From: a virus
Strand: one strand, 5' to 3'
Length of the DNA: 49,859 bases
Virus record (IMG/VR): IMGVR_UViG_3300044695_004218
Span: 1 to 49,859 of that record
In this document: piece after piece, positions 5,819-22,544 of the stretch
Position numbering within the stretch: position 1 is the stretch's first letter
How the letters are laid out: each line of letters begins with the position of its first letter
The notes under the pieces: generated by a model
The model's database searches: none
The model's input: the letters and a program-made list of their open reading frames with translations, nothing else
What the model was told of the DNA's origin: nothing
Translations under genes and position numbers: made by a program

Positions 5819-8800
5819 TTACGGTCGCGGTTGGATTTTTGGTTCCCCGATGCTCAACAGCGCACCAGTTGGGAACTTGATTGCATCCGCAACTCCAGCC
5901 ATTTTATCATACAGGAAACGCTTAGTTTCAAGTGGAGCCTTAGGATTACGGTACTGCTCGTAGTCCGCGTGGGTTCTAGTTTTTGTGCGGAGAGTTTCAG
6001 GGGTGTGGAACTGCAACTCAACAGGAAAACCATCAGGTGAAGTTAGGGCCACGTTGATACCGTTGTAAGGGTCACCCTTGACCCAAAAGTTTTTTGTCCG
6101 AGCCGTGTACCCTTTGGACTCCAACTCAGCCAAAGTGTTTTGCACCCCAGCAGTGTAAGTTTCGGCAGGAAAAGACATTGTGTAACGAACGCTATCCGAG
6201 ATTTTTGCGGCGGCGGCGTCAACATTTCCGCCATGTTCCTTGGTCGCATCGGATTGGATTTTTCCAGCCAGTGAGTCCTCACCCTTCATGCGATTAGACA
6301 AACCCACCATTTCCCCACCATTTTTAGAAGCAAGGTCAGTCATTTCCTTAGTCACCGCAGGCTCAACGGCTTTACCACGGGCAACAAGGTTGATAGCGGC
6401 TCGCAACGCTGCTGGGCTGTAAGGGCGCTTACTTGTTTGTGAAGCCTTTGACCGTCCTGAGATGCTACTGGGATGCTGGGAACCATAGTTTGGTCGTGAA
6501 GGGTCACCGTGCTTGGTAACCTCCCCCATTTCAATGTCTTCCCACTCAGATGGAACCTCAATGCCGTAACCATCAGCATCCATTTGGGCGATTTCTTCAA
6601 CCAAAACATCCCAAGCCGATGACTCTTCCTCGGTGAGCGCACCAAAATCTTTTTTTGTCAAACCTGAGGCAATAAAAATACAAATCCTGCCCAAACGCTT
6701 CACACCCATCGGGTCTAAAATCGCTTTGCTAACAGTTCCCTTCCTTGCCTTATCCACGAACTGGCCCCAACGGTAAGCACTGTGAACTGTAATCGGCTTA
6801 CCAAAAGTTGTGCTGGCGGTTCTGATTGGCTTACCACCACTGGTGTCCCACAACTCAAAGGAGTCAAACTGGTCAGCAACATCTGGAACAAGGTTAGAAA
6901 CTTCTCGGTGGATGCGTTCAATAACAAACTCTGGAACGTACCGCTTAGTTTGTTCGGCTCGTCTCTTGGCACGAGTCACAGCAGTCCGAGTGGGGCACGA
7001 AACATAAACACCACGCACCGTGTAGCCCCTGCTACGAGCCGTAGCAACTTTTCCTAGCAGGCTTTTCTGCGAAGAGTCACCAGTTCCATCCAAAACAACA
7101 TTTGTTTGCATGTCAAGGGCGCCCGCTTGTATTCGTTTAGCGATGTACGAGGACTCTTCGTGGGACAAGTGCGCTGCTGGCTTCCAGTCCCCAGTGTTTC
7201 CTGATTGTGTTGCCACTTGGTACTCAGGTAGTTTTGTTTTCACTGCGTCAGGGTCAATGGTTACCGCGTTTTCAGGCTTATCCACCACGGCCTCGGGGAT
7301 TTTGCCTCCACGGATTTTTTTCTTACCGTTTCCAGCCTTCAAGATAGTTGACTTACCCGCCCCAGAACCACCACCCATCAGCAAGAACTCTGGGTTATCC
7401 GTGGTTTTACCATCGGCTAGGGCCTCAGCAACAATCTTGTCGTGTAAGGCTTGGCGTTCAGGGGTAAAAATGGGGGAGCCGTCTGGGTTTTGACCAATAA
7501 CAAACTTGCCACAATAAGACGTTTCGGGGTTGCCCAAAGCCTTGAAATCTGCATCGCTAATGGGGACGGTTCCGCCCTTGCCACCAGCAGGCTTCGCCTT
7601 GTACCCACCACCAGATGCCAGCGCTGGGCTGTTTGGGTGTTGGGCTGCGTAGTTTGGTCGTGAAGGGTCGCCGTGTTTTTGGATGTCCGCTGTGGACAGT
7701 GTGTAACGACCAAGGATGTCACCACCAAACATTGGTTGCCTGTAACGGCGCTTTGTACCGGAAGCACCATCAACAAAACCGCTCAGGTTCACTGCGTTAG
7801 CAGCCAACACTTCACCAGCAGTTGTGCGAGGTGGCTCAACTTGCAACAAGGCCACTTCGTCACGGAAAATGGACTTAGCCTCCGTGATTTGGGTTTGGAT
7901 GTCGCCCCCAGCCTTAGAGTCGTTCAATGCTTGCAAGCCGCGGTCATACCCATCGGAGTATTCAAGTTTGATTTCGCGCTTTGGGATGCGTGCGTGGGCT
8001 AACCCGTTCTTATTGTCACCGAAAAGTGCTGTCTCAGCAGAAGACGAAGTGATGCCCTTACGTCCGTGAACTTTTTGGTCAGGGTGGCCCGGGTGCTTCA
8101 GGACATCCTCTAACGCTTTACCAACAGCGTCTTCGTTGATGTCAGCCAAAATACGTTCAGCCTTACCACCAACACTGTAACCACGCAGTTCACCGGCCTT
8201 GACCAGTTCCCAAGCCCACGGTTCCCAAATCACACCAAGGAAAACTGTCCCAGCGGGGTAAGTGTGTTCGGTGTCGGTTCCGTCTGGTGCAGTGATTGGG
8301 GCGGTGATTGGGAAAGGCATTTGCATGATTTCTACCCACTCACCAGCCACAATGTCGCGGTTGTGTTGTAGGCGGATAGCACGGTCACCACCGCGAACAT
8401 AACCCCAAGCGGCTTCTTGCAAAGTTTGTGCATCCGTCCACTCTTCGTGGGCGTCCAGCATGTCAGGGATGTACCACGGGCCAAGGGTAAAACGGTTCTG
8501 GTCGTCAATCTCAGCCATGTCAACAGCCTTGTTAGCCAACTCGGGTTGTTTGTCTGGGGTGACAATCAAATAATCTGGGATGATGGCGAAGCGACACTTA
8601 CCCATCGGCTCCACGGGCAAACTGATGATTGTGCAAACACCATCACCGGCGTAAAGCGCACAGTTCTGGCAGTTCACACCCATGGACGCTTGTTTGTTGT
8701 TTCTGGCGCTGTCGTACCCTGCCCAAACACCTGTCATGTCTTGGTTGAACTTGCCATACTCGTTAGTCACGCTCAGGAGGGCATCGTGTAGGGCCTGTTC

Positions 8801-9223
8801 CTCAGGCACGAGTGTTTCGCCATGTTCGTGAAGAACGGCCTTGTTTGTTGAAAACAGGGCTTGCATTTGTTTGTCAGTCAACTCTTCGGTGATTTCTAAA
8901 CCCTTGTCAACTGGTTCAACACGCAACTGGTGACCGTAAGCCGTCATGTAAAGAACAACATCACTGTCTTGCGTGATTGCCTTGTGCAAGTCCTCTAAAA
9001 CCTCTTCAGGGAGGTCAAGGTCAATCTCATCCCCCACAGAAACAGGGGTTCGGTTGATTTCAACAGCCGTTTCAGTCCACACACCCTCATCTGGGTGAGT
9101 GTGGCCCAACTCGTCCATTTGATGGGCGAGGATGTGGTGCGCTTCCACCACCGCGCCATCAGGCTCAGGGTAAGCCTTGTGCAGGTTGTCGTGGGCTAGT
9201 TGCAACTCTTCAAGGTTAGGCAT
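5819..9223 (-). CDS. Giant XkdF-like / zeta kinase / RelA-SpoT-like multidomain protein
   Basis: 1134 residues in modules. Residues 1-180: acidic, no family. About 185-210: cysteine cluster CQNCALY...C...GKC, resembling a HiPIP-like metal site. About 255-365: XkdF-like domain, ending TVFLGVIWEPWAWELVKAG and YSVGGKAER, related to PBSX XkdF and suggested to act in prohead processing. About 375-386: linker KHPGHPDQKVHG. 516-530: linker KHGDPSRPNYAAQHP. About 590-790: zeta-toxin-like P-loop kinase with Walker A GGGSGAGKST near 621 and an Arg-rich lid. About 903-917: linker KHGDPSRPNYGSQHP. 950-1134: RelA/SpoT-like domain with 'iSDSVRYT', 'YNGINV' and VELQFHT. Zeta toxins usually phosphorylate UDP-sugars; RelA/SpoT-like toxins transfer pyrophosphate. 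Activities are inferred from motifs. It probably reaches the capsid and is processed there. Confidence 0.8.
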   Translation of the reverse strand: MPNLEELQLAHDNLHKAYPEPDGAVVEAHHILAHQMDELGHTHPDEGVWTETAVEINRTPVSVGDEIDLDLPEEVLEDLHKAITQDSDVVLYMTAYGHQLRVEPVDKGLEITEELTDKQMQALFSTNKAVLHEHGETLVPEEQALHDALLSVTNEYGKFNQDMTGVWAGYDSARNNKQASMGVNCQNCALYAGDGVCTIISLPVEPMGKCRFAIIPDYLIVTPDKQPELANKAVDMAEIDDQNRFTLGPWYIPDMLDAHEEWTDAQTLQEAAWGYVRGGDRAIRLQHNRDIVAGEWVEIMQMPFPITAPITAPDGTDTEHTYPAGTVFLGVIWEPWAWELVKAGELRGYSVGGKAERILADINEDAVGKALEDVLKHPGHPDQKVHGRKGITSSSAETALFGDNKNGLAHARIPKREIKLEYSDGYDRGLQALNDSKAGGDIQTQITEAKSIFRDEVALLQVEPPRTTAGEVLAANAVNLSGFVDGASGTKRRYRQPMFGGDILGRYTLSTADIQKHGDPSRPNYAAQHPNSPALASGGGYKAKPAGGKGGTVPISDADFKALGNPETSYCGKFVIGQNPDGSPIFTPERQALHDKIVAEALADGKTTDNPEFLLMGGGSGAGKSTILKAGNGKKKIRGGKIPEAVVDKPENAVTIDPDAVKTKLPEYQVATQSGNTGDWKPAAHLSHEESSYIAKRIQAGALDMQTNVVLDGTGDSSQKSLLGKVATARSRGYTVRGVYVSCPTRTAVTRAKRRAEQTKRYVPEFVIERIHREVSNLVPDVADQFDSFELWDTSGGKPIRTASTTFGKPITVHSAYRWGQFVDKARKGTVSKAILDPMGVKRLGRICIFIASGLTKKDFGALTEEESSAWDVLVEEIAQMDADGYGIEVPSEWEDIEMGEVTKHGDPSRPNYGSQHPSSISGRSKASQTSKRPYSPAALRAAINLVARGKAVEPAVTKEMTDLASKNGGEMVGLSNRMKGEDSLAGKIQSDATKEHGGNVDAAAAKISDSVRYTMSFPAETYTAGVQNTLAELESKGYTARTKNFWVKGDPYNGINVALTSPDGFPVELQFHTPETLRTKTRTHADYEQYRNPKAPLETKRFLYDKMAGVADAIKFPTGALLSIGEPKIQPRP
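6470..6514 (-). repeat. Linker repeat KHGDPSRPNYGSQHP
   Basis: 15-codon linker between the zeta-like and RelA/SpoT-like modules of 5819-9223. Its DNA closely resembles the other copies. Confidence 0.85.
7634..7678 (-). repeat. Linker repeat KHGDPSRPNYAAQHP
   Basis: Precedes the zeta-like kinase module of 5819-9223 and is followed by NSPALASGGG. Confidence 0.85.
8065..8100 (-). repeat. Linker repeat variant KHPGHPDQKVHG
   Basis: Directly after the XkdF-like domain of 5819-9223. It relates to the KHLPGQHDQSSHG type (K-H-x-P-G-x-x-D-Q-x-x-H-G). Confidence 0.75.
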
Positions 9224-9259: not shown

Positions 9260-9406
9260 CTATTCTTCGTCATCCTCTGGCATCACCGCTGGCATGAAGT
9301 CTGGCTCAGGGTAGGTGGTTGTGAAATCGTTGTATGCAAAAAAGTTGTCCATGGCGTTGTCTAACTCGGCAAGGGTGTATTCGGGTTGCTCTTCGGGCTC
9401 GGTCAT
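9260..9406 (-). CDS. Small acidic protein (48 aa)
   Basis: MTEPEEQPEYTLAELDNAMD..., strongly acidic at both ends (MPEDDEE). The start overlaps the upstream stop as ATGA (9403-9406), giving translational coupling to 9403-11409. 36 bases separate it from the next giant gene. Could be a small chaperone for the neighbouring basic effector; that is inference. Confidence 0.6.
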   Translation of the reverse strand: MTEPEEQPEYTLAELDNAMDNFFAYNDFTTTYPEPDFMPAVMPEDDEE

Positions 9407-11409
9407 TTCTTGCCAATCCACTCTGGGCGCATCCACGGCTCAAATACCACGGGGTTGATGTAGGTACTCAATGCTACCGCACGGGTGTTTCCTAGTTGCT
9501 TGGCAACAGCGTCCCCAACAGCGAACCGGCGTTTCTTGTAATCCTTGAACGTGGCTGGCCTACGCTTACCCTTCGTCAGGAGGATTGCAACAGCGTTGGC
9601 CTTGTGGGTTCTCAGGTCGTGGTTTTTGACCTTGGGGAGCCCTGTGACGCGCCTTAGGTAGGCAACTGAAGTGGAGTCGGTGGAGTTCGGGAACATTTTG
9701 TCGTTGCCCGATTTGCCCTTTTTCTGCTTTTCAATGGCTTTAGCCAGCACGGGGTCTTTGATGACGTAGTGTTGCTTCACCTTGTCCTTGCCAAGGAAGT
9801 CCAAAATCACTGACCCAGTTGGGGTGGTTTTGACATGCTTGGCCCTCAGTGTGGAAGCCCCATAGGTGGCGTCCCGAACTAGGCGACCCTGCACAGCGGA
9901 CTCCTGACCAACTCGGCAACCAGTGTTCCGCATGATGGCAACGACCATGGCATCCTCTGAACCCTTTGGCAGGTCTTTTGCCAGCGCTTGGTCAAGTTGT
10001 GGCATCTTTTTGTGTAGTTCTTTGGTGCGCTTGAACTTACTGGCTGCTTGCTGTTCTTTCCACTCTTGGTTGTAAACGTGGTGCCACTCATGCTTAGCAT
10101 CCTGCCCCTTGACCACGAGGTGGCTTTCACCCTCGGGTACAAGAACGTCAACCCAATGCTCAGGAACCTTGTAACCATGGTCACGCAAAATGCGTTCCCT
10201 GTCTGATGCGGTAGCCGTGCGGAACCCTTTACGCTGTGTCCCACCAGTTGGGTGTTTTTGTGCGTAACCGCGCTCACCCGGTGTTCCATGCTTCAACACA
10301 CCAGCGCTAAGTGAAATAACTGAAACACTTTTGGAAGTGGTTGTGCGATTGCGGTTAGGTGGTGGCCCAATGCCAGAGTGATTTGGCATAGGAGCGAAAT
10401 CTGTTTTCCACCCGAACTCTTGCACAAACCATCGGGTTGACTTTTTATCAGATTTTCCACCACTCACTACATGGTCTCTAAAGGCTTCAGCCCAACCCTC
10501 CCATGTGTTTGTCTTGCCATACTTACTCATGTCACTGTCGTTACTACCCCATAGTTCGTGGCTTGGCACTGTCTCACGAAGAGTGTTCCGCATGTCTATG
10601 GTGTGACCCCACTCATGCACCAAAGCGCGTCTGTAACCTCCGCCCGTCTCGTAGTTGCCAATGAACTCGGAAGGGTTCAGAGCCAGCATCCCAGCACCAC
10701 TGTCACTACCCAACATGGCCCAGCCACCAGCGTTTTTGTAACCATCACCAGTAAAAGCATCCGAGGAAACCCGAATACTCATAGAGCCTTTACCGTTACC
10801 ACCACGGGGTCGCGCTGGAAAGTTTGATTGCAACCAGTCAACGTCTTCCATCAACTCTTTGCGTTGTTGCTCAGAAATGTTTTTTGCGTCTGTTCCAAAA
10901 GCAACTTCTAGGTGCAGGCCGTCAGCAAGTGTTCTACTCCAAACCTCATCACCAACTTGGTGAATAGCCGCACCGGACTTTTTCAAGCGAACATTTTCGC
11001 TGTGGTCACGAGACCAGTTGATGTCTTGCTCTATTGCTGAGATTTTTTTACCGTCTTCGTCCGTAATAACACCGCCTAAACCAGAAACGTGACGGCTAAA
11101 AACCTTGTTCCCAGTTTCCTGAAAAACTTGGTCATACACATCTTGCCTAGTGACCGTGCGCTTCGTCCAACCACCACCAGCAAGCGCTGGGCTGTCAGGG
11201 TGCAACGATGCGTAGTTCGGTCTGGAAGGGTCACCGTGCTTGGCAACAGTTTTCAACGACTCAGGGGCCATGCTCCAAGAAGGCCACTTAGAAACTTTTT
11301 CAAGCCAGTTTTCGCCATACAAAAAAATCATGCCCTGCTCAGTGGTGGGCAAATCCCAGCGCAACTGCTTTATCCAGTCAGCGTTTTCAAGGGTGTCGTC
11401 AATGTTCAC
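9403..11409 (-). CDS. Metallopeptidase / type IB topoisomerase fusion
   Basis: 668 residues. 1-56: unique start. 57-71: linker KHGDPSRPNYASLHP. 75-350: metallopeptidase-like module with HEWGHTID near 270 and a downstream EGWAEAF supplying a possible third ligand. About 372-386: linker variant KHGTPGERGYAQKHP. 395-668: poxvirus/bacterial-type topoisomerase IB. Visible landmarks are MRNTGCRVGQE (first catalytic Arg) near 495, YGASTLRAKHV and ILDFLGKDKVKQH (Lys region), HDLRTHKANAV (second Arg) near 600, and STYINP near 651 with the likely nucleophilic Tyr. Such enzymes relax supercoils by a 3'-phosphotyrosyl intermediate. The metallopeptidase module is paralogous to those in 11406-15299 and 15527-17464. 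Start overlaps the upstream gene by 4 bases. Confidence 0.82.
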   Translation of the reverse strand: MNIDDTLENADWIKQLRWDLPTTEQGMIFLYGENWLEKVSKWPSWSMAPESLKTVAKHGDPSRPNYASLHPDSPALAGGGWTKRTVTRQDVYDQVFQETGNKVFSRHVSGLGGVITDEDGKKISAIEQDINWSRDHSENVRLKKSGAAIHQVGDEVWSRTLADGLHLEVAFGTDAKNISEQQRKELMEDVDWLQSNFPARPRGGNGKGSMSIRVSSDAFTGDGYKNAGGWAMLGSDSGAGMLALNPSEFIGNYETGGGYRRALVHEWGHTIDMRNTLRETVPSHELWGSNDSDMSKYGKTNTWEGWAEAFRDHVVSGGKSDKKSTRWFVQEFGWKTDFAPMPNHSGIGPPPNRNRTTTSKSVSVISLSAGVLKHGTPGERGYAQKHPTGGTQRKGFRTATASDRERILRDHGYKVPEHWVDVLVPEGESHLVVKGQDAKHEWHHVYNQEWKEQQAASKFKRTKELHKKMPQLDQALAKDLPKGSEDAMVVAIMRNTGCRVGQESAVQGRLVRDATYGASTLRAKHVKTTPTGSVILDFLGKDKVKQHYVIKDPVLAKAIEKQKKGKSGNDKMFPNSTDSTSVAYLRRVTGLPKVKNHDLRTHKANAVAILLTKGKRRPATFKDYKKRRFAVGDAVAKQLGNTRAVALSTYINPVVFEPWMRPEWIGKK
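10249..10293 (-). repeat. Linker repeat variant KHGTPGERGYAQKHP
   Basis: Separates metallopeptidase and topoisomerase modules. Preceded by SLSAGVLKHG, a longer shared boundary also seen at 12506 and 15269. Confidence 0.75.
11197..11241 (-). repeat. Linker repeat KHGDPSRPNYASLHP
   Basis: Near the N-terminus of 9403-11409, before the metallopeptidase module. Confidence 0.85.
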
Positions 11410-14400
11410 TGCGCCCTCCCAATGACAGGTCTTCCAATGAGAACCAGTTCTTGCTCATTTAGGCAACCCATACCTGTTGTTGGAAGAGACAAAATGTTTG
11501 CCACTGGGATGGTGGCGGTAAAAAGTGTTCCCTTCCAACTCCGCTCTTCTGACCCATTAGCAAACTGGACGGCTACGCTTTTTTTGTAACTCCATGAAGA
11601 TAAAGGGCGCATCGTTAGTTTTGCGCTTTCCCGCGAACCAGTTTTGTCTTTGCGACCACGGAAGGCAACAACTTCTGTAAGATTGTGGTCTGAAAAAAAC
11701 TTTTGCGTGTTGTTGTATTGGGTTCGCAAAAACTTTTGGTACACGGGGCCATGCTTGGCAAACAAAGCATCAACTTCTTCTGGTTTCCAACCTGTTCCCG
11801 TCCACTCTTCAGCCTCGCCAAGACCGAACTCTTTTTTAGCAGCCTCTTGCATAACCAAAGATACATTATTTGCGTTGTTAGAAGTACCAGCCCAGTTCTT
11901 GACCAACTTGCTCACACAAGTTTTGCGTAACGCCGTTTCACCTTCTGGTGTGTTTGGGCTGAACGAGTCCTCAAACAGGTCAGGCAAAACAGCCATCAAA
12001 GAGCCATCTTCTTCAATGGTGAAATCAGGGGCATCAGGTTTCAGTGACCCATCTTCAGCAAAAAACACTGTCAGGTTCGCTGGTACTGCCGGATAAAACT
12101 CCTCCCCAGCAGAGTTGAAATACTGACCATCATCGTTTTCCGTGTAGTCACCGTCGTGGGGTGGTAAACGACCGTAGGCACCTTTTTGTTCCTCACGAAG
12201 TCCTTTGTATTGGTCGGCGAGGGATGCGGCGGCTAAGTCTTGTGTGGAAACATCTGACATCCCTTTTTCAATGTTCGTTGCCACCATGTCTTTGGCTATC
12301 GTCTTTCGCAACTCTTCATCCGCTGGGATGTCCGAAGCGTTTGGGGCCAAAGAGTGAAGTAGTAGGGCATCCAAAACGTCACCTGAGTCAGGGTTGGGGA
12401 TTGGGTAGGTGTTGCCATCGCTTTCGCTGACATAGGTGGTTTCAACTACTTGCGGGGAGTTCGGGTGCAACGCGGCATAGTTCGGGCGTGAAGGGTCGCC
12501 ATGCTTCAACACACCAGCGGCAAACGTCACCAACGTCTTAGACAAGTCCGATTTTTTGTTGCGCTCACCAAGGTCAAGGGATTGCACATTGTTGGCCTCA
12601 CCCCATTGACGAACCGTGTCCATGGCGAAACCGAGGTCTTGGTCAAGGATGAGGACAGGCAGGCTGTGACCGTGACCGGCTAGTTCAAGGGCAACCGAGC
12701 CAGCCCAGCGGTGGTGACCATCCAAAATCCACCCATCTCGGGTGACAAGGACTCGTGCAGCATCGGTGACTTTTCGGTCTTTCTTCTCATTTTGCATGAT
12801 GAACCCAGCGGAGCGCCCACTAATCTCACCCTGAATAGGCTTCAGACCGATTGGGTTGCGCTCTGAGCGCTTCATACCAACGCCTTGGGCTTCCATGTCC
12901 GCTATGAACTGTGCCTTCATCTGGGAGGGCACCTGTGGCATCTGAGAGCGGTCTAACCCAAGGTTGTCTGTGTCAAAGGTTTCCCCCTCCATGCCTTTCA
13001 CGCTCAACAACGTCAAGTTCGGCTGGTCTGAGCCCTGTGACATCAACTCCAGCATCGGTTCAACGTCCTCAGGGTTGACCGTCACTTTCCTACCAGAGCG
13101 GATAGCCGTCAAGTTGCGGGCAAACCCACCACCACGAGAGTTCGGGTGTTGGGAGGCGTAGTTCGCACGGCTCGGGTCGCCATGCTTGGCAACAGGTGTG
13201 GGGTGGACACCGTAAGGAACATCCCGCCTGATGATTGGGGCGTCCTTGAACGTGTCATAAATAACCACAGTCAGCATGTCCGCTGGGTAGGTTAGCGTCC
13301 CCTTCGGGGCCACCCCCTTGGCAACTGCTCCCCAGTTGTTCCACTCAGCGTACAGTTCCGTTGCCTTGTTACGCTTAGACTTCGGCATACTTGTCGTTGA
13401 AGGTGGCAAAAAATGTTGGGTAAAGGCCTCGGCGTAAGCCTCACGGGGGTCGCTCATACCATAACTGCTCATCCCTCCACCAGCGTTGCCACGACCATCA
13501 TCTATGTCCCAAACGTCCCGCAAATGTTTGGCAGAAGTGCTTTCATTGTTCATGTCATGGGCGTGACCCCACTCGTGCGTGATGACGTACTTACCAGCGG
13601 CACTTGTGCGACCAGTGGGCATAAAGTTACTAGGGTCTAACCCTGCACGCGCGATTGAGTCACCTTGGGCTCGTACCAAAAACTCTTGACGGATGTGGAT
13701 TACCGTGTCACGCATCGCACCCTGCCGAGTTACAGCCGTGTACCCCATGGCCCCCGCAGGAACATCCTCAAACCCTGCGTCATCAACAACAACCATCACA
13801 TTTCGGGCATCCCCAGCCATCAGTGCGCTCACCAAGTTGGCATCCATTAGTTCTGCACTAGGCAAGAAAGGCTCACCAACAATGGGCGCTACGGCTTGGG
13901 TTTCCTCAATCCACTTCAGCACCCGTTTCTGGCCCTCAGCATCTAAGCCAAACTCGGGGTCGCTGTCCTCAAACGCAACAACAAGCATCCCCTGACCAAA
14001 CTCTCTGACAAAAACATCTGACACAGGGATGTTGTCCGCCGTGGTGTCCTCAAAATGTTCCCAACCGGCTTGGCCCCCACCCTTACGACCATGGCTAGAT
14101 TGGTCATGCTGACCGGGTAGGTGTTTTGCCACTTCAGCCCATGCTTTACCCTCGGGAAGAAGCGTTTCTGAGTGTTGCACATCTAACTCAGGGTACAAAT
14201 CTCTATGGAAACGAAGCATCGCTGAAGCCAAACCACGGCGTTGATGAGCAGACCTTACCGCCGCCTCCGTAATAGTTGCCTTTGTATCGTTTTTAGCGGA
14301 ACTACGCCAAGGGTTGTATCCCTCCATAGGCCCAACAATGTCTAGGTGACCTATTTCCTCACCTTTTCCTTCAGAATAACCATCTATCGTTGTTCCATCG

Positions 14401-15299
14401 GTTGGCTTTTCTAAGACAACGACAAACTTTTCTCGTGCATACAAAACATAATCTTTTGGTTCTTTTCCTTCAGGCTGAAAACGAACCACCCGACTGTTTT
14501 CGTTGAAATACTCGTTCAAGCCATCGTTTTTACCAAGGATTGTTAGTTTAGGAGAACCTGAACCCGCCCCAGAACCATGCGTAGATTGGTCGTGTTGGCT
14601 GGGAAGGTGCTTTTGGACAGCGTTACCAACATCGGCGCTATTGACGGTGAGTTTGCTCCCGTTGAATAAGGCTGTTTCCCCATGGATTGTGAGTCCGTCA
14701 TAGCCCTTACCAGCCCAATACACGTTACGCAGGTCTGACACGGAAAAATCTTCCATCTGCCCAGACCTCACACGCGCGGTCAACCTGTCAAAATCTATGA
14801 AACTGGAACTCGTGGTCGTCATGGTTCTGGCGCGAGGGTTGTCGTAACTCACATCAAAGGCGCTGTCCCACGTTGTTTCACCCTGAACCAGTTTTGCGCT
14901 CGCGTCTAATCTCACACCGATTAGGGTTCCGTAGTTGGACGCAATGTCCTTATCGGAGGCAAGGTAAATCCCCTGACCCCACGTTGCGTGCTCAAAACGC
15001 CTGATTTTGCCGTCAAGGAGGCGCTGTGCGTCCCTCTCCACGAACTGCACGCCACGGTAATGAGTGACTTCATCGGCAGACAGTAAAGCCACGGACGGTT
15101 TCATGCTTTTGCCTTGGCGCTTCGCAATGTTGGCATACATCTCGTTGATTGTTTTTGAGCCGTAAATCACATCGCGGATTTCATCATCGGACAACTCACT
15201 GGTGGTGCCCTGAGCACCCTTGCCACCACCGCCGTGGCTAGATTGGTCGTGTTGGCCCGGTAGGTGTTTCAGCACACCAGCACCAAATGAAACAATCAT
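11406..15299 (-). CDS. Giant ART / GNAT / metallopeptidase / ParB-like / ART polyprotein
   Basis: 1297 residues in five modules, each set off by a linker. 1-23: MIVSFGAGV plus KHLPGQHDQSSHG. About 30-215: ADP-ribosyltransferase-like fold with HYRGVQF near 80 and GQGIYLASD. 230-242: linker. 250-390: GNAT-like acetyltransferase with RRGLASAMLRFHRDLYPE. 392-404: linker. 420-680: metallopeptidase, HEWGHAHD near 576 and REAYAEAF. 705-719: linker. 740-920: ParB/sulfiredoxin-like domain with DGHHRWAG near 860. 931-945: linker. About 1150-1297: second ART with AFRGR (1215), LSSWS and NEQELVLIG (ExE, 1284), the R-S-E signature of arginine-type ARTs. The region 950-1150 is unassigned. Probably a capsid-borne effector polyprotein; enzymatic roles are inferred from motifs. 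Confidence 0.8.
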   Translation of the reverse strand: MIVSFGAGVLKHLPGQHDQSSHGGGGKGAQGTTSELSDDEIRDVIYGSKTINEMYANIAKRQGKSMKPSVALLSADEVTHYRGVQFVERDAQRLLDGKIRRFEHATWGQGIYLASDKDIASNYGTLIGVRLDASAKLVQGETTWDSAFDVSYDNPRARTMTTTSSSFIDFDRLTARVRSGQMEDFSVSDLRNVYWAGKGYDGLTIHGETALFNGSKLTVNSADVGNAVQKHLPSQHDQSTHGSGAGSGSPKLTILGKNDGLNEYFNENSRVVRFQPEGKEPKDYVLYAREKFVVVLEKPTDGTTIDGYSEGKGEEIGHLDIVGPMEGYNPWRSSAKNDTKATITEAAVRSAHQRRGLASAMLRFHRDLYPELDVQHSETLLPEGKAWAEVAKHLPGQHDQSSHGRKGGGQAGWEHFEDTTADNIPVSDVFVREFGQGMLVVAFEDSDPEFGLDAEGQKRVLKWIEETQAVAPIVGEPFLPSAELMDANLVSALMAGDARNVMVVVDDAGFEDVPAGAMGYTAVTRQGAMRDTVIHIRQEFLVRAQGDSIARAGLDPSNFMPTGRTSAAGKYVITHEWGHAHDMNNESTSAKHLRDVWDIDDGRGNAGGGMSSYGMSDPREAYAEAFTQHFLPPSTTSMPKSKRNKATELYAEWNNWGAVAKGVAPKGTLTYPADMLTVVIYDTFKDAPIIRRDVPYGVHPTPVAKHGDPSRANYASQHPNSRGGGFARNLTAIRSGRKVTVNPEDVEPMLELMSQGSDQPNLTLLSVKGMEGETFDTDNLGLDRSQMPQVPSQMKAQFIADMEAQGVGMKRSERNPIGLKPIQGEISGRSAGFIMQNEKKDRKVTDAARVLVTRDGWILDGHHRWAGSVALELAGHGHSLPVLILDQDLGFAMDTVRQWGEANNVQSLDLGERNKKSDLSKTLVTFAAGVLKHGDPSRPNYAALHPNSPQVVETTYVSESDGNTYPIPNPDSGDVLDALLLHSLAPNASDIPADEELRKTIAKDMVATNIEKGMSDVSTQDLAAASLADQYKGLREEQKGAYGRLPPHDGDYTENDDGQYFNSAGEEFYPAVPANLTVFFAEDGSLKPDAPDFTIEEDGSLMAVLPDLFEDSFSPNTPEGETALRKTCVSKLVKNWAGTSNNANNVSLVMQEAAKKEFGLGEAEEWTGTGWKPEEVDALFAKHGPVYQKFLRTQYNNTQKFFSDHNLTEVVAFRGRKDKTGSRESAKLTMRPLSSWSYKKSVAVQFANGSEERSWKGTLFTATIPVANILSLPTTGMGCLNEQELVLIGRPVIGRAQ
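12462..12506 (-). repeat. Linker repeat KHGDPSRPNYAALHP
   Basis: Before the last (unassigned plus ART) part of 11406-15299; preceded by VTFAAGVL. Confidence 0.85.
13143..13187 (-). repeat. Linker repeat KHGDPSRANYASQHP
   Basis: Between metallopeptidase and ParB-like modules of 11406-15299. Confidence 0.85.
14088..14126 (-). repeat. Linker repeat KHLPGQHDQSSHG (copy 2)
   Basis: Between the GNAT-like and metallopeptidase modules of 11406-15299; followed by RKGGGQ. Confidence 0.85.
14574..14612 (-). repeat. Linker repeat KHLPSQHDQSTHG
   Basis: Between the first ART-like module and the GNAT-like module; followed by a Gly/Ser stretch. Confidence 0.85.
15231..15269 (-). repeat. Linker repeat KHLPGQHDQSSHG (copy 1)
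   Basis: At residues 11-23 of 11406-15299, i.e. an N-terminal tag preceded by VSFGAGVL and followed by Gly-rich sequence. Confidence 0.85.
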
Positions 15300-15308
15300 T
15301 GGGCAATC

Positions 15309-15530
15309 TTACTTCGCTTGGTCAGCCTTCGTCGCCAAGTAAGCATCCAAAATCTTGGCACCCTTCGCTTGGTCACTGGGCTCTTCAAGAGGCTCAGGGG
15401 TCATCGTGGCTAACACATCAGCCAAGTATTTCCCACCGATAGCCACAGCCAGCGCTGGGACGTTCTTGTAGATTGTTGGATAGCCTCGCTCAAAATCCTC
15501 AAAAATGAGGGTGCGTCCATCGTCACTCAT
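15309..15530 (-). CDS. Small hypothetical protein (73 aa)
   Basis: Start chosen at 15530 (MSDDGRTLIFEDFERGYPT), because this ATG overlaps the stop of the MuF gene as ATGA. C-terminus Glu/Lys-rich. Its place between MuF and the giant effector gene suggests a role in head assembly or effector handling; no family recognised. Confidence 0.65.
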   Translation of the reverse strand: MSDDGRTLIFEDFERGYPTIYKNVPALAVAIGGKYLADVLATMTPEPLEEPSDQAKGAKILDAYLATKADQAK

Positions 15531-17464
15531 AGTTTCACCGTACTTCCCCAAGCGTTTTGTTCAGCATACCACTTGACTGTGGACAGTTTGATGGAGCCAC
15601 CTGTTAGGAAGTATTGGGCAAAGGCCTCGGCGTAAGCCTCACGGGGGCTACTCCTGCCGTAGGCGCTCATGTTTTTTGCTTTGGCTTTAGGGCTTATGTA
15701 TTGGTCTTGTTGCTCCATGTAAGAACGATTGTCAAACATGTGACCCCACTCGTGGGCCATGGTGTATTTCCAGACGGGAACATCCATGCAAACGGGCATG
15801 TTTACAGTGCGCCCAATGTCACCTTGTCTTATTTCAATAAACTCTTCACCCGTAAGGCGGCGATTTGATTTTTTTTCCTTTGACCAAGCATTAGCATTTA
15901 CTGACATAACATTTCCACCTTTGCCGTCAACTTCACGCCCAACAAAACCAAGTACGTTTGGTTTTTCAACAAAATCCTCATTGTTTACACGGACAGTCAA
16001 GCCACCCTCAGACGACATGTCCCCAAGGTCAGCCTTGCTGTCAAGTTCATTAGCAAAACTAGCCGCTTCTTGCTTTTGTTCATCGGTGAGTCCGCAGCGT
16101 TTAGAAAAAACAACGTCTAAAGGTGAGCCGTCCTGCCTTGTCTTGGCCCAAACGTCATCGCCAACATGATAAAAGTTACGGTCATGGACAGTTTCTTCTC
16201 TCAAAACTCCAGCAACGTCCTGAGGGAAATACCGTTCCCCACTCAAAACAGGTAAAAGTTTTTCAACCCAGTATTCGCGGAAGTCAGAGTCACTTTCGGC
16301 AAAATAGTTTTCCAGTTGGGCACGAACATCGTCCTTAGTGATGGTTCGGCGTGAAAACCCGCCATTGACCGCAGGACTATTCGGGTGCATCTGAGCGTAG
16401 TTAGGGCGTGAGGGGTCGCCGTGCTTCTGAACCAGTTGCTCAGCCTGCAACGCAAACCCAAACGGGTCAGACGACACAGGGGACACACCCTTAGCCTGAA
16501 CCATGGCCCGCAACTCATCTAACGTAGGCACAATCGGTGTCGCAGTGCAACGACAATGAGGGTGAGCAGGGGGCATCAACAACCCATTAGAAAACGGTTT
16601 GTCCCACGAAACCCTTTCACCCTTCATCGGCGCACAATGCTCACAAGGCTTCCCATAGGGTGAGTTAGGTGTGATGACAGCCCACTCCTTCAACAACCCC
16701 CCAGCCAACAACCCCTGATTGTCGGCCTCAGCCCAACTCAACAACCGTCCCATGTTGTTCGCGTACTGGATTTCTGTGCGAGCAATCATCTTCGCCCTGT
16801 ACCGAACTAGGCGCGTGGCGTACTTGTCAGCCATTTCGCGGGCCTTTTGTTTAGCCTCAGCCTCAACCACACCGTTCTTGACGAGGCGTTGCAAAGTGTT
16901 GTCATACAACTTTCCAACAGCACTAGCGTGCCGAGGTAGCAACCCAACAACACGGGTCAAGCGTTGAGCCGTTTCCATGGGGTCAATGCCGTTGTTGATT
17001 GCCTCGTAAATGGTTTGGCGTATCGCTTCCCTAGTGGACTCTTTCACCGAGGTGACCAGTTCACCAGTTTTCACCTGAGCCCAAGCAACAGCGCGAGGGT
17101 CAGTGACATCAAAACTGTAAGTAACATCGGTTCCGAGGGCTGTACGCAACGTGGCTAACTGTTTTCCAGCCTCACCCGAAACTTGGCTCAGCAACGTCAC
17201 GGGGACATCACCCAAGTTCATGCTGAACCCAGCCCAATCAAACGAGTCCACCACGGAGTCAACCGAACCTGAACCCAAGGCCAACCCACGCAAGTTGTCG
17301 TACAACTGTGGGGACTTGGTGAAACCCTTCAACCCTGAAATGGCTTGGGCGTAGGCGTCAGCGATGCGCCGTTCTTGCTTGGTAAGAATAACTTTGCGGG
17401 TTCGCTTCTTACCACTAGCCGTGGTGTAAGTGACCTTCTTGGCCTTACGGACAACCAGAGCCAT
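15527..17464 (-). CDS. MuF-like minor head protein with C-terminal metallopeptidase
   Basis: 645 residues. The N-terminal half (about 110-320) is a phage Mu gpF-like head morphogenesis domain. It shows the ARTEIQYANN helix near 240, KPCEHCAPMKG near 273 and HPHCRC near 302, the usual C..C ... HP.CRC metal cluster. Linker KHGDPSRPNYAQMHP follows at 347-361. The C-terminal half (370-645) is a metallopeptidase-like module: GFSRRTITKDDV start, HEWGHMFD near 571, REAYAEAF and a final WG. MuF proteins sit inside or at the portal vertex, and MuF with C-terminal toxin domains is a known polymorphic-toxin format of phages. Start overlaps the portal stop (TAATG). Confidence 0.88.
   Translation of the reverse strand: MALVVRKAKKVTYTTASGKKRTRKVILTKQERRIADAYAQAISGLKGFTKSPQLYDNLRGLALGSGSVDSVVDSFDWAGFSMNLGDVPVTLLSQVSGEAGKQLATLRTALGTDVTYSFDVTDPRAVAWAQVKTGELVTSVKESTREAIRQTIYEAINNGIDPMETAQRLTRVVGLLPRHASAVGKLYDNTLQRLVKNGVVEAEAKQKAREMADKYATRLVRYRAKMIARTEIQYANNMGRLLSWAEADNQGLLAGGLLKEWAVITPNSPYGKPCEHCAPMKGERVSWDKPFSNGLLMPPAHPHCRCTATPIVPTLDELRAMVQAKGVSPVSSDPFGFALQAEQLVQKHGDPSRPNYAQMHPNSPAVNGGFSRRTITKDDVRAQLENYFAESDSDFREYWVEKLLPVLSGERYFPQDVAGVLREETVHDRNFYHVGDDVWAKTRQDGSPLDVVFSKRCGLTDEQKQEAASFANELDSKADLGDMSSEGGLTVRVNNEDFVEKPNVLGFVGREVDGKGGNVMSVNANAWSKEKKSNRRLTGEEFIEIRQGDIGRTVNMPVCMDVPVWKYTMAHEWGHMFDNRSYMEQQDQYISPKAKAKNMSAYGRSSPREAYAEAFAQYFLTGGSIKLSTVKWYAEQNAWGSTVKL
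16382..16426 (-). repeat. Linker repeat KHGDPSRPNYAQMHP
   Basis: Joins the MuF domain to its metallopeptidase extension; followed by NSPAVNGG. Confidence 0.85.
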
Positions 17465-18894
17465 TACTGCTCCTTAGTTTTGTCCTTTGGGGCGGGGTCA
17501 ACATACATTTCTCCCTTTTGGGAGTCGCCTGCACCAGCACCATCCACGGTTTCCTTCTTCTCAGGTTCCTTCGGGGCCTCGTTCGGTGCAGGTGGCTGGT
17601 TTTGTTGTTGGCGTTCCTCAGCCGACTCAGGGTCAGCAGGTGGCAAACCGGCAATCCCACGCAAGTGTTCTTCAAGGTCGTCATCCACCACAAGGGCACC
17701 AGCGCCAACAAGTTGTGAAACGTACCCAGACATTTCGCCAAGGTCAACGTGGTTGACTTCGCCGTAGGTCAAACGAGGAGGATTTTCGGTATCCATGTTG
17801 TTCAGGCGCAACAACCGAGGAATAGCGTACTGGTTGACCACCTCAGAGATTGACTTAGCAATACCGTCAATCGCCATAGTCCACAAATCCATCTTGGACG
17901 AGCCCAAAGCAAACGACCCTGTGCCTTGATGGCCTAAGAGCATGAAGTCAGCCAACACACTCATAGCAATACGTTGGTCGTAGCGTTCAATAACCTTGTC
18001 AGTGTCAAACTGTCGGCGCCCCCCAGCGGACAAAAGGGTCAAATCAAACTGCTTGTTTCCCGACTCGTCATACATGAGTGGAAACACAACGCCTTCTTGC
18101 TCGTTGCGCTTGATGTTTTGCACAATGTCAGTGACCAGTGAAACAACTTGCTTCTGGGCTGGGGTTGCATCCGTACTCAACCACTCCGCTGGGACGTAAG
18201 CGACAGGCAAACCTGAAAGGTCGCGCTCAATACCCGAGGCTTCGTACTCTTCAATACGCCTCTTGAAGTACCACGCACGGAACGCTGTACGAAGCATGGA
18301 CTTACCTTCAGGGGAACCCTTCTGGGCGCCAATACGGAACAGCAAAGCCTTTTCAATGGGGATGATGCACAAGCCCTTGCCTGAGGGGTCAAACTGTTCC
18401 ATGGCAATCGTGGAACCATCTTCTGGGTCAAACTGCCAGCGCAACAAGGTTTCCTGCGCTCTTCCCCCCCATTTACGCCAACCAATCTTGTTATCGTTGA
18501 ACTTGGAACGCTTAGATGGGTCTTTCTGGTCAGGCCCGCCACGGCGCTTGTAAACGATTTCGTGGTAAGCCCACCCAAAAACGCACATAGACAAGATTTC
18601 GGACAAGGTTTCGTCCCACGAGTCGGACATGTCGTCCAAGCACTCTTGGATGAAAGCCACACGTTCGTCTTCCACATCGTCTGTGTGGGCTCGCACATCC
18701 CACTCTAGGCGACAAATAATCTTGTCCACTGCGAACAAGATGGCACCGATGATGGCATCGTTTTCCGACATTTCGCGGAATACACGGCGACCTTTATCGC
18801 CACGCAAAGCGTTGACGAACTCGTCTTGAACAAGGCCACCAACGCGCCGAAGCCCAGTTGTACCCAGTTCGCTCATGTCAAGTTTGTCAGCCAT
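17464..18894 (-). CDS. Portal protein
   Basis: 476 residues, usual portal length. The region REMSENDAIIGAILFAVDK, then FVFGWAYHE-like helices, RWQFDPEDGS and the stretch EEYEASGIERDLSGLPVAYVP fit portal proteins that form the dodecameric DNA entry ring. The C-terminus is Gln/Pro/Glu-rich. It is followed by MuF, the classical portal-MuF pair. The exact portal family (Gp29/DUF935-like or another) cannot be settled by eye. Confidence 0.85.
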   Translation of the reverse strand: MADKLDMSELGTTGLRRVGGLVQDEFVNALRGDKGRRVFREMSENDAIIGAILFAVDKIICRLEWDVRAHTDDVEDERVAFIQECLDDMSDSWDETLSEILSMCVFGWAYHEIVYKRRGGPDQKDPSKRSKFNDNKIGWRKWGGRAQETLLRWQFDPEDGSTIAMEQFDPSGKGLCIIPIEKALLFRIGAQKGSPEGKSMLRTAFRAWYFKRRIEEYEASGIERDLSGLPVAYVPAEWLSTDATPAQKQVVSLVTDIVQNIKRNEQEGVVFPLMYDESGNKQFDLTLLSAGGRRQFDTDKVIERYDQRIAMSVLADFMLLGHQGTGSFALGSSKMDLWTMAIDGIAKSISEVVNQYAIPRLLRLNNMDTENPPRLTYGEVNHVDLGEMSGYVSQLVGAGALVVDDDLEEHLRGIAGLPPADPESAEERQQQNQPPAPNEAPKEPEKKETVDGAGAGDSQKGEMYVDPAPKDKTKEQ

Positions 18895-20139: not shown

Positions 20140-20661
20140 CTATGAGGGTGTGTATGGTGGGAAAGCAACGTAGGGCCTTTGACCGTTGATGTAGCCCTTT
20201 TCCTTGCTCTCACCAATGAAATCCATGGCTTTCTTGCTGTACCAGTCTATTGAGGTGGACAAGTTCTTTTTGTAGGTTGCATCCAAACCAGTCCTGACAG
20301 CCTTTTCACCATCCACCATTTCGTACAGTTTCGGTTCCAAGATGTCTGCCACGTTTTGGTGCGCTCGGGCCGCGTCAAGATTGAGTTCTTTGTATTTTTC
20401 GGGTGCGAGTGCCAGTTCGTCTATTTGAGCGCTACGAGCGCGGTTTCCTTGGCTTTTAGCCTGCTGTGCAAGTGCGAACACTTTCTTGTCCTCAGAAACC
20501 GTCATCCCAACAACATCAGGTGGTGTGCTTTCGCTGGGGGTAAGGAAACCTGCACTAGCCATCCTTTTCGTACCGGCACTGTGACCACCGTTTGGGTGTT
20601 GCGCTGCGTAGTTAGGCCGAGAGGGGTCGCCGTGCTTGGCAACGAACTCTGTCATGTCCAT
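20140..20661 (-). CDS. Stand-alone KHGDPSR-tagged protein A (173 aa)
   Basis: Begins MDMTEFVA, then the linker tag KHGDPSRPNYAAQHP at residues 9-23. A helical, charged body follows with no recognised domain (from about EDKKVFALAQQAKSQ). It is paralogous to 20663-21139: both have (L)TEFV before the tag and 'PPDV...V.EDKK' after it. The presence of the tag on a separate small protein suggests it is a signal (packaging or processing) and not just a linker. Lies between the lysis cassette and its paralogue, one base after the upstream stop. Confidence 0.75.
   Translation of the reverse strand: MDMTEFVAKHGDPSRPNYAAQHPNGGHSAGTKRMASAGFLTPSESTPPDVVGMTVSEDKKVFALAQQAKSQGNRARSAQIDELALAPEKYKELNLDAARAHQNVADILEPKLYEMVDGEKAVRTGLDATYKKNLSTSIDWYSKKAMDFIGESKEKGYINGQRPYVAFPPYTPS
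20593..20637 (-). repeat. N-terminal tag repeat KHGDPSRPNYAAQHP
   Basis: Residues 9-23 of 20140-20661. Confidence 0.85.
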
Positions 20662-20662
20662 G

Positions 20663-21139
20663 TTACTTGAAACTTTCTTCCGCTAACCGATTGGCTTCGG
20701 CTATGCTACCAGCGTTGGCTTGGGCTTGGTATTCCTTGGCCTTCTGCTCGTACCACTTTTTAGCCTTCATTTGGTCTGGTGTGGCGGTATCAAAACCAAT
20801 GATGGCATCAAACTGCATAGCAACTATTTCGTGCGAACCTGCTGCAACCCGTAGTTTTCTGTTTTGCTCAGACCTTTCTACGGGAGTTGTTGACGGCATC
20901 GTTAGCCGAGCAACAGCCTCCTTCGCCTCGTGGGCGTATTCATTGGTTTTTTTGTCTTCATAAACTGTGCGTGCAACATCCGCTGGTGGTGCCCCTTCAC
21001 CTTCCACCAGCCCTAGAACACGTTCGCCCCCGGGGACGTATGCACGATTACCTGTGGCTGTTAGGGAGTCTGGGTGCTGAGAGGCGTAGTTAGCCCGAGA
21101 TGGGTCACCATGTTTTTGGACAAACTCGGTGAGGTTCAT
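20663..21139 (-). CDS. Stand-alone KHGDPSR-tagged protein B (158 aa)
   Basis: I place the start at 21139 (MNLTEFVQ), one base after the upstream stop. The tag KHGDPSRANYASQHP occupies residues 9-23. The rest is helical and charged (EDKKTNEYAHEAKEAV ... MKAKKWYEQKAKEYQA). Paralogue of 20140-20661; even the junction DNA (TTCAAGTAACATG against TTCAAGTAGCATG) is nearly the same, suggesting tandem duplication. Candidate internal head protein; function unknown. Confidence 0.75.
   Translation of the reverse strand: MNLTEFVQKHGDPSRANYASQHPDSLTATGNRAYVPGGERVLGLVEGEGAPPADVARTVYEDKKTNEYAHEAKEAVARLTMPSTTPVERSEQNRKLRVAAGSHEIVAMQFDAIIGFDTATPDQMKAKKWYEQKAKEYQAQANAGSIAEANRLAEESFK
21071..21115 (-). repeat. 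N-terminal tag repeat KHGDPSRANYASQHP
   Basis: Residues 9-23 of 20663-21139. Confidence 0.85.
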
Positions 21140-21140
21140 G

Positions 21141-21344
21141 CTACTTGAACCACCCTGCACCAGTGCTAGTTGAACCGTGAGTTTTCTTTGTTGCGCCTGT
21201 AATGACCGATTTTGTGGCCCCGTTACCGATACGCAAGTTCAGTGTCGTTTGGCTTGTCACACCAGTGATGATGGCTCCACGAACCCTACCCGCGGCGTTG
21301 CGGTAACGAACGAACCCACCCACGCGGGCTACCCAACCTGTCAT
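21141..21344 (-). CDS. Small basic beta-rich protein (67 aa)
   Basis: Begins MTGWVARVGGFVRYRNAAGR and is basic with repeated strand-like segments (IITGVTSQTTLNLRIGNG). An alternative start at 21389 would add 15 residues, but none of the starts has a good ribosome binding site. First gene of the leftward unit that includes the tagged proteins and lysis genes. The pattern resembles a small SH3-like or coat-associated domain, but I cannot assign it. Confidence 0.55.
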   Translation of the reverse strand: MTGWVARVGGFVRYRNAAGRVRGAIITGVTSQTTLNLRIGNGATKSVITGATKKTHGSTSTGAGWFK

Positions 21345-21382
21345 GCGGTTATTATTCACCACTGTGTCGGTGTTGCAGTACC

Positions 21383-21395
21383 ACCACACCGTGGT
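21383..21395. promoter_or_regulatory. Isolated operator-like palindrome between divergent genes
   Basis: ACCACACCGTGGT, the inverse of the palindromic core of the promoter motif (ACCAC-GGT-GTGGT). It lies between 21344 (leftward) and 21414 (rightward). The full CTAAC...TANNNT context is missing. A TATGCT at 21402-21407 could be the -10 of the rightward gene. Confidence 0.45.
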
Positions 21396-21413
21396 TTGCG
21401 CTATGCTCCGTGC

Positions 21414-22544
21414 ATGGAACTGACCTACCCAGACACATGGCTTGACCTTGAACGCTCACCACACCCCATGACCAGCAAAGTTGTCATGGACGAAGTGACC
21501 ACCCAACTCGTGGGCGACTTTGATTACCAAACCGATGGTGTGAGCGAGTTCTACCCTTACTTGCTTCCAGCAGACCTACCCGAAGATTTCAGTCTCGGTG
21601 TCATTGTTGGGGCCTCAGGCACGGGTAAGTCAACTTTGTTGGATTGCTTCAACCAAGTCCATGAACCTCAGTGGTCTCGTGGACAGTCCATTTCGTCACA
21701 CTTCACCAGTGTGGAGGATGCTCGGGAACGACTCTACGCTGTGGGGCTGACATCGGTTCCAACGTGGGTGAAACCGTACAACGTCCTTTCCACGGGGGAG
21801 AAGTTTCGTGCTGACCTTGCACGCCAGATTGGTGACGGGGCTGTCATTGACGAATACACCTCGGTGGTTGACCGCAACATCGCTTTGGCTTCCTCGGCCT
21901 CACTGGCCCGCTACATCCAAACCACTGGTGTCAAGCGCCTAGTTCTTGCCACTTGTCACCGTGACGTTTTGCCTTACCTTCAGCCGGATTGGGTCATTGA
22001 CACCGATGCTGGGGCTTGGGCTCTTCACCCTCGGGGGTGTCTTCATCGTGAACCAATGGTGGCGCAGGTTTTTGAGGTCACCGGAGCCCTCTGGGAGTAT
22101 TTCAAGGGGCACCACTACCTCAGTGGAGACATTTCACCCTTTGCTCGGTCATGGTGCGCTGTCATCGGCGGACAGCCCGTTGCTTTCTACTCCGTCCTTT
22201 CCTACCCCAGTGGAACAGTCACAGACGCTTTTCGGGGACACCGGCTCGTAACTCACCCTGATTGGCAGGGGCTCGGGATTGCACCGAGGTTGGCTGATTG
22301 GGTGGCTTCGCTGTATGTGAGTAACGGGAAACGGTTCTTCGCTAAGACGGCTCACCCACGGCTTGGGGAGTACCGTGAGCGTTCACCGTTGTGGAAGCCC
22401 ACGAGTAAGAACCGCATGATACGAACCGATGCCACTGGCAGGGTTCACAAGGGCCGGTTCGCTTCGTGGGTGGTCAACCCTGTGCGGATGACGTACTCGC
22501 ATGAGTTTGTTGGAACCCATCACAGCCACAAGGTTCAGCCGTGA
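21414..22544 (+). CDS. ABC-type ATPase fused to GNAT acetyltransferase
   Basis: 376 residues from the ATG at 21414 (MELTYPDTWLDLERS). Walker A GASGTGKST at 66-74, ABC signature-like LSTGEKFRADLARQI near 125, Walker B GAVIDEYTS near 143, and a His switch in TCHRD. It has no membrane segments, so it is a soluble ABC ATPase, not an exporter. From about 245 on it is GNAT-like, with RSWCAVIGGQPVAFYSVL and VTHPDWQGLGIAPRLADWV. It is alone on the plus strand among leftward genes, which suggests separate acquisition and control. The substrate is unknown; roles in DNA or nucleotide handling or counter-defence are possible. Confidence 0.82.
   Translation: MELTYPDTWLDLERSPHPMTSKVVMDEVTTQLVGDFDYQTDGVSEFYPYLLPADLPEDFSLGVIVGASGTGKSTLLDCFNQVHEPQWSRGQSISSHFTSVEDARERLYAVGLTSVPTWVKPYNVLSTGEKFRADLARQIGDGAVIDEYTSVVDRNIALASSASLARYIQTTGVKRLVLATCHRDVLPYLQPDWVIDTDAGAWALHPRGCLHREPMVAQVFEVTGALWEYFKGHHYLSGDISPFARSWCAVIGGQPVAFYSVLSYPSGTVTDAFRGHRLVTHPDWQGLGIAPRLADWVASLYVSNGKRFFAKTAHPRLGEYRERSPLWKPTSKNRMIRTDATGRVHKGRFASWVVNPVRMTYSHEFVGTHHSHKVQP

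Follow-up and report, generated by a model that had tools for sequence, protein, structure and literature searches.

The 49.9-kb linear virus record IMGVR_UViG_3300044695_004218 of IMG/VR (positions 1–49,859; this whole stretch is called the window below) encodes a short peptide tag that occurs 13 times, each copy standing before one protein module. All 13 copies have [VI]-x-K-H in common; two of them open the small proteins A and B (positions 20,140–21,139), one is placed at the start of a polyprotein of 1297 amino acids (aa) and 10 are internal. We lean towards the view that the tag is a protein-level signal, which brings tagged effectors into the phage head and is probably cleaved by the prohead protease. 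Apart from T4 and several giant phages, it is poorly understood how most phages load specific effector proteins into their heads. If our reading is correct, head cargo becomes predictable by sequence, every tagged open reading frame (ORF) being a candidate injected effector (up to 19 per genome here); the tag would be a testable portable signal for protein packaging in phage heads, and the assembly and disassembly of polyvalent effector arrays would be explained.

Proteins A and B and the conservation of their tag

The first-pass annotation of this DNA described two paralogous proteins beginning with (L)TEFV-x-KHGDPSR, and both were indeed found as minus-strand ORFs, 31% identical to each other:

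20663..21139, minus strand: tag protein A, 158 aa from ATG, starts MNLTEFVQKHGDPSRANYASQHPDS; N-terminal tag followed by a 135-aa body, family unassigned
20140..20661, minus strand: tag protein B, 173 aa, starts MDMTEFVAKHGDPSRPNYAAQHPNG; N-terminal tag followed by a 150-aa body; paralog of A

Both start with M-x-[LM]-TEFV-x-KHGDPSR-x-NYA-x-QHP, and the start contexts of A (...TTCAAGTAgcATG) and B (...TTCAAGTAacATG) are almost identical. This resemblance is not due to chance, since the window contains 13 such tags and a search with B against it matched 8 places (E from 6e-117 to 3e-6). The same annotation denied the two proteins any other module; as each has a body of 135–150 aa, for which no match was found in Pfam or NCBIfam, “no recognised module” is the correct wording. 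For the body of B, AlphaFold2 (AF2) gave a mostly helical prediction of low confidence (predicted local distance difference test, pLDDT, 45), which is uninformative with only three sequences in the input. In the near relative L010, 97% identical across the adjoining 4.1 kb, only B is present and it is fused at the tag to the upstream flank of A.

Eight tags of the window are of the KHGDPSR (DPSR) type, three have the form KHLP[GS]QHDQS[ST]HG (HDQ type), one is KHPGHPDQKVHG and one is KHGTPGERGYAQKHP. In A and B the tag, a peptide of roughly 15 residues, belongs to the pattern [VI]-x-K-H-GDPSRPNYAxxHP. Among the modules behind the tags are topoisomerase IB, zeta toxin/PNK and domains like those of metalloproteases, ADP-ribosyltransferases, GNAT, ParB/sulfiredoxin and XopAD; assignments of ADP-ribosyltransferase, GNAT and HEXXH modules were made by sequence inspection.

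Comparison of the eight DPSR tags revealed 289 identical residue pairs out of 308, while fourfold sites were identical in 39 cases of 135, which equals the codon-usage expectation (about 0.29). For HDQ tags codon identity was 0.560 versus 0.536 expected. Since synonymous codons are near random while residues are kept, conservation acts on the peptide rather than on DNA. Recent duplication or gene conversion of tag DNA was ruled out by the same codon statistics, a clear excess of codon identity being registered in a single contig, L131. Valine occupies position −2 of the tag KH in 48–53% of cases versus 6% at other KH in the same genomes, so that the hydrophobic-x-Lys step belongs to the tag. 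In the AF2 model of a tag–ParB–tag segment the module had pLDDT of about 94 and both flanking tags 34–40; tags are thus predicted to be disordered around a confidently folded module.

The sister tag in related phages

Relatives from IMG/VR carry a sister tag of the HDQ type, [V]xKHx(2-4)HDQx[ST]HG-NWA. A scan with this form gave at least 120 stretches, and all tag counts given here derive from the matches listed. Among them there are at least 264 distinct copies in at least 70 loci: 117 of 264 are N-terminal (the preceding stop being no more than 75 residues away), 139 internal and 8 undecided, while the modules behind them have a median length of 223–239 aa. Since 84 of the 117 N-terminal tags belong to single-tag ORFs, the original argument, according to which there is no reason for a linker to open stand-alone proteins, holds and can be generalised. 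A simple linker is kept in composition only and lies solely between domains; here there are N-terminal copies and conserved residues.

All 22 tagged records chosen have 4–19 tags each, all on one strand, and a reversed control pattern gave zero matches. Seven of these records, read more fully, proved to be relatives of the window phage (portal 58–62% and terminase 61–66% identical), with major capsid proteins 55–60% identical to that of Arthrobacter phage Kovu; Arthrobacter is the host of the nearest cultured relatives. Of the 80 tags in these seven genomes, 76 are located between the genes of MuF and XkdF-type protease, in a stretch that makes up 19.6% of the length (binomial P ~1e-48, a guide only, since tags are clustered). 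Three of the remaining four are found just past the protease, and one belongs to a 169-aa stand-alone protein adjoining the terminase, which is of a kind with A and B. No tag was present in portal, MuF, scaffold-like, capsid, tail and terminase genes of the seven relatives or in the examined stretches of five related phages lacking the cassette. Tagged ORFs contain ADP-ribosyltransferase (16), zeta toxin (6), SprT (4), prohead protease and MuF domains, together with PHROGs of Alt-like ADP-ribosyltransferases.

Tags track the genome rather than the module. Those standing before unrelated modules of the same contig had a similarity of 0.593 versus 0.479 after label shuffling (standard deviation 0.006, maximum 0.495, 300 shuffles); for homologous modules (<60% identity) in different contigs tag similarity was 0.491 versus 0.444 for unrelated pairs. 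Six DPSR-tagged modules of the window have homologs elsewhere that bear HDQ tags. Such tracking would be expected with a single trans-acting reader in each phage; it supports this reader without proving it, since incoming modules inserted behind resident tags would yield the same pattern.

KHGDPSR-type tags were also found in a second contig, L421. Its minus-strand ORF has tags at residues 29 and 420, one of them preceded by the leader FAFEPGLKPVLKH, which in other cases accompanies HDQ tags; the contig also carries a variant KHMSPGDKGYAAAHPNS, close to tag 10 of the window. In locus L013 (14023–15156, gene 20 of Arthrobacter phage Kovu) and its relatives, “RNA ligase” and “aldolase” annotations conceal a C-terminal XkdF-type prohead protease domain.

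Tagged genes of the window and possible roles of the tag

Late genes of the window occupy the minus strand in the order tail, ParB-like and terminase, A, B, holin-like ORF, amidase endolysin, portal, MuF fusion and a set of three large proteins, with an XkdF-type prohead protease in the final one. Tags and tagged genes are arranged as follows:

21071..21115, minus strand: tag 1, KHGDPSRANYASQHP, start of A, after MNLTEFVQ
20593..20637, minus strand: tag 2, KHGDPSRPNYAAQHP, start of B, after MDMTEFVA
17464..18894, minus strand: portal protein, untagged (Portal_Mu, 6e-36)
15527..17464, minus strand: MuF minor head protein (Phage_Mu_F, 4e-10) joined via tag 3 to a HEWGH metalloprotease-like module
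16382..16426, minus strand: tag 3, KHGDPSRPNYAQMHP
11406..15299, minus strand: 1297-aa polyprotein of five tag–module units (ADP-ribosyltransferase-like, GNAT-like, metalloprotease-like, ParB/sulfiredoxin-like, ADP-ribosyltransferase-like)
15231..15269, minus strand: tag 4, KHLPGQHDQSSHG, HDQ type, N-terminus of the 1297-aa protein
14574..14612, minus strand: tag 5, KHLPSQHDQSTHG, HDQ type
14088..14126, minus strand: tag 6, KHLPGQHDQSSHG, HDQ type
13143..13187, minus strand: tag 7, KHGDPSRANYASQHP, predicted disordered
12462..12506, minus strand: tag 8, KHGDPSRPNYAALHP, predicted disordered
9403..11409, minus strand: 668-aa protein, tag 9 + metalloprotease-like module + tag 10 + topoisomerase IB module
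11197..11241, minus strand: tag 9, KHGDPSRPNYASLHP
10249..10293, minus strand: tag 10, KHGTPGERGYAQKHP, variant
5819..9223, minus strand: 1134-aa protein, XkdF-type protease (S78_2) + tag 11 + small module + tag 12 + zeta toxin/PNK + tag 13 + phrog_2859/XopAD-like module
8063..8098, minus strand: tag 11, KHPGHPDQKVHG, HDQ-like variant
7634..7678, minus strand: tag 12, KHGDPSRPNYAAQHP
6470..6514, minus strand: tag 13, KHGDPSRPNYGSQHP

A leader of the kind ..[FL].AGVLKH precedes three different tag types (tags 4, 8 and 10). The prohead protease, fused here to three tag–module units (5819–9223), is a separate untagged protein of 232–259 aa in the relatives L163, L165 and L171. The final module of the 1134-aa protein (6469–5819) was matched by profiles of XopAD-type effectors (NCBIfam NF041399, E 1e-29) and by PHROGs that bear the name head morphogenesis. 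On the opposite strand, at 21177–22544 (+), there is a 455-aa ORF with P-loop ATPase-like and GNAT-like parts, which is conserved in L010 (334–1539).

One can propose that the phage sets a mobile “effector tag” directly before every effector domain to be loaded into the head, whether this is a solo protein or a bead of a polyprotein. The disordered tag would be recognised in trans by one component of head assembly, namely scaffold, portal/MuF complex or XkdF-type prohead protease, and this recognition would bring the effector into the prohead. The prohead protease may cut at or near the hydrophobic-x-Lys step, converting polyproteins to single tagged effectors resembling A and B; ejection of these effectors together with DNA would follow. 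On this view, A and B would join the small internal proteins of this kind as two more members. The initial suggestion that the peptide is likely a signal fits with peptide-level conservation, genome tracking and near-confinement to the head cassette; that such a signal would mean virion incorporation is suggested by position and the kinds of modules.

Several observations weigh against head loading as the role of the tag. DPSR and HDQ tags are mixed within one polypeptide of the window, which means that a genome is not strictly limited to one type of code, and tag 4 seems to have come with its module (73% identical to that of L175). Genes of A and B are not part of the MuF–protease cassette but belong to the lysis/portal stretch. 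In relatives the major capsid, scaffold-like, MuF and portal proteins are untagged and therefore provide no independent substrate for the proposed cut site. Genome tracking could also come from old within-lineage duplication of tags, and recombination could alone put resident tags before incoming modules. Finally, tblastn with short peptides of both tag types gave no match in cultured phages, although this kind of search has low sensitivity. With longer tagged proteins, only untagged single-module homologs were matched, for instance in Rhodococcus phage E3 (gp205) and Bacillus phage SP-15, and 22 stretches of GTDB genomes picked up by the HDQ pattern contained no true tag, no tagged prophage being seen.

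Recombination at tags does occur, whatever other roles they have. One module (ALSENYPDLL...) is found behind at least four different leaders with the junction at the tag, and L010 has a crossover at the same place, joining the flank of A to the body of B. These junctions, as well as predicted disorder, would suit a tag serving only as a recombination seam and flexible linker, with N-terminal copies on solo proteins left from polyprotein fission. We find this explanation unlikely. Synonymous sites are randomised while residues are kept, both in the window and in relatives, and crossover is left with a short DNA match of low quality. The V-x-K-H...HDQ..HG-NWA sequence would be needless in a pure linker, tags are absent between domains of tail, replication and lysis proteins, and the 84 listed single-tag ORFs retain the N-terminal copy.

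Still less probable, in our opinion, is that the tag is only a processing site, without targeting, for the XkdF-type prohead protease or metalloprotease modules of the polyproteins. The fixed hydrophobic-x-K with its preferred valine has the form of the T4 gp21 processing site, L/I-x-E, i.e. hydrophobic-x-charged (PMC9026906), the protease gene adjoins the cassette, and P1 DdrB-like polyvalent proteins are described in passages of PMC5512222 as being cut before packaging. However, some 12–16 residues are conserved beyond K-H, which exceeds the short motif reported for gp21. Cutting would remove only about nine residues from the N-terminus of A, with no evident purpose unless targeting is involved, and scaffold-like, MuF and capsid proteins of relatives have no copy of the tag. 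Action after ejection, as a metal-binding or nucleic-acid-binding peptide or an aid in translocation or refolding, might be expected from a short His-rich tag, disordered alone according to the model and placed before enzymes that would act in the host, but is very improbable, since no test here indicated a host target. In addition, the HDQ type has three histidines and the DPSR type retains just two of them, for which reason a metal site shared by both types was set aside as unlikely.

Comparison with known systems

Polyvalent proteins are multidomain proteins with MuF, ADP-ribosyltransferase, metallopeptidase, GNAT, ParB-like and RelA-like domains, whose genes accompany those of the head and which are believed to be injected; their domains are also known in solo form (Iyer et al. 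2017, PMC5512222, passages searched). Several unlike enzymatic domains per polypeptide among virion genes, the feature that defines this class, were found in the products of 5819–9223, 9403–11409 and 11406–15299, and their context suggests that they may be injected with DNA. The searched passages of that paper mention no linkers and no per-domain tag, whereas here one tag marks both solo and fused effectors. In MuF polymorphic toxins of temperate phages the MuF head protein is joined to variable toxin modules (PMC5576092, passages searched). The product of 17464–15527 has Phage_Mu_F, tag and HEWGH module in succession and would belong here if the HEWGH module is toxic; A and B lack MuF. Again, no linker or motif is reported in the passages searched, while here most effectors are MuF-free and the tag is the common element. 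The modules are those already known from both classes, and the tag itself appears to have gone unrecognised. No description of it was found in Pfam, NCBIfam, PDB or full-text literature searches, including those with motif strings; PHROG 2859 appears to cover some tags within a function-unassigned family.

The same grammar is followed by another peptide, GGPGSGNFGHxGRPGxVGGS, in other phage contigs (IMG/VR loci L181–L299). It has 175 distinct copies in 108 loci, of which 61 are N-terminal and 52 belong to single-tag ORFs, with a median module of 240 aa and up to four matches per locus. Its sequence is unrelated to DPSR or HDQ tags, and it is absent from the literature searched. The motif RDRKGRFAEMGG (L300–L379) was rejected as one more family, because each ORF has a single, mostly internal copy, located near residue 200 of large proteins; it may be an unrelated joint in other phages. 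It is conceivable, though we hold this only tentatively, that tailed phages use several peptide “address codes” (KHGDPSR..., KH..HDQ..HG-NWA, GGPGSGNFGH...GGS) marking any domain for head loading and release, with one code per lineage and modules freely exchanged behind the resident tag. If true, tailed phages would possess a delivery system that is general, portable and similar in this respect to secretion signals.

A functional parallel is provided by capsid-targeting sequences (CTS) of T4 internal proteins IPI–III and the propeptide of Alt, an ADP-ribosyltransferase which also sheds a short propeptide (PMC9026906). In both cases a short N-terminal peptide is common to otherwise unrelated proteins, as in the 84 listed HDQ single-tag ORFs and in A and B with DPSR tags, and head-assembly genes are in the neighbourhood. 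T4 CTSs are N-terminal propeptides, whereas the present tag is repeated inside polyproteins before every module (139 of 264 listed HDQ tags and 10 of 13 in the window are internal). It is also longer, His-rich and carries [V/I/L]-x-K-H, with V favoured, in place of L/I-x-E, which would require another protease specificity. Residues of T4 CTSs separate targeting from processing. Tagged phages, unlike T4, have a Mu-type portal and an XkdF-type protease. We agree with the earlier opinion that the resemblance to T4 is one of function only. Internal copies and absence of L/I-x-E speak against membership; by analogy, the tag may work like a T4 CTS without being homologous to it, and no residue-level claim is made.
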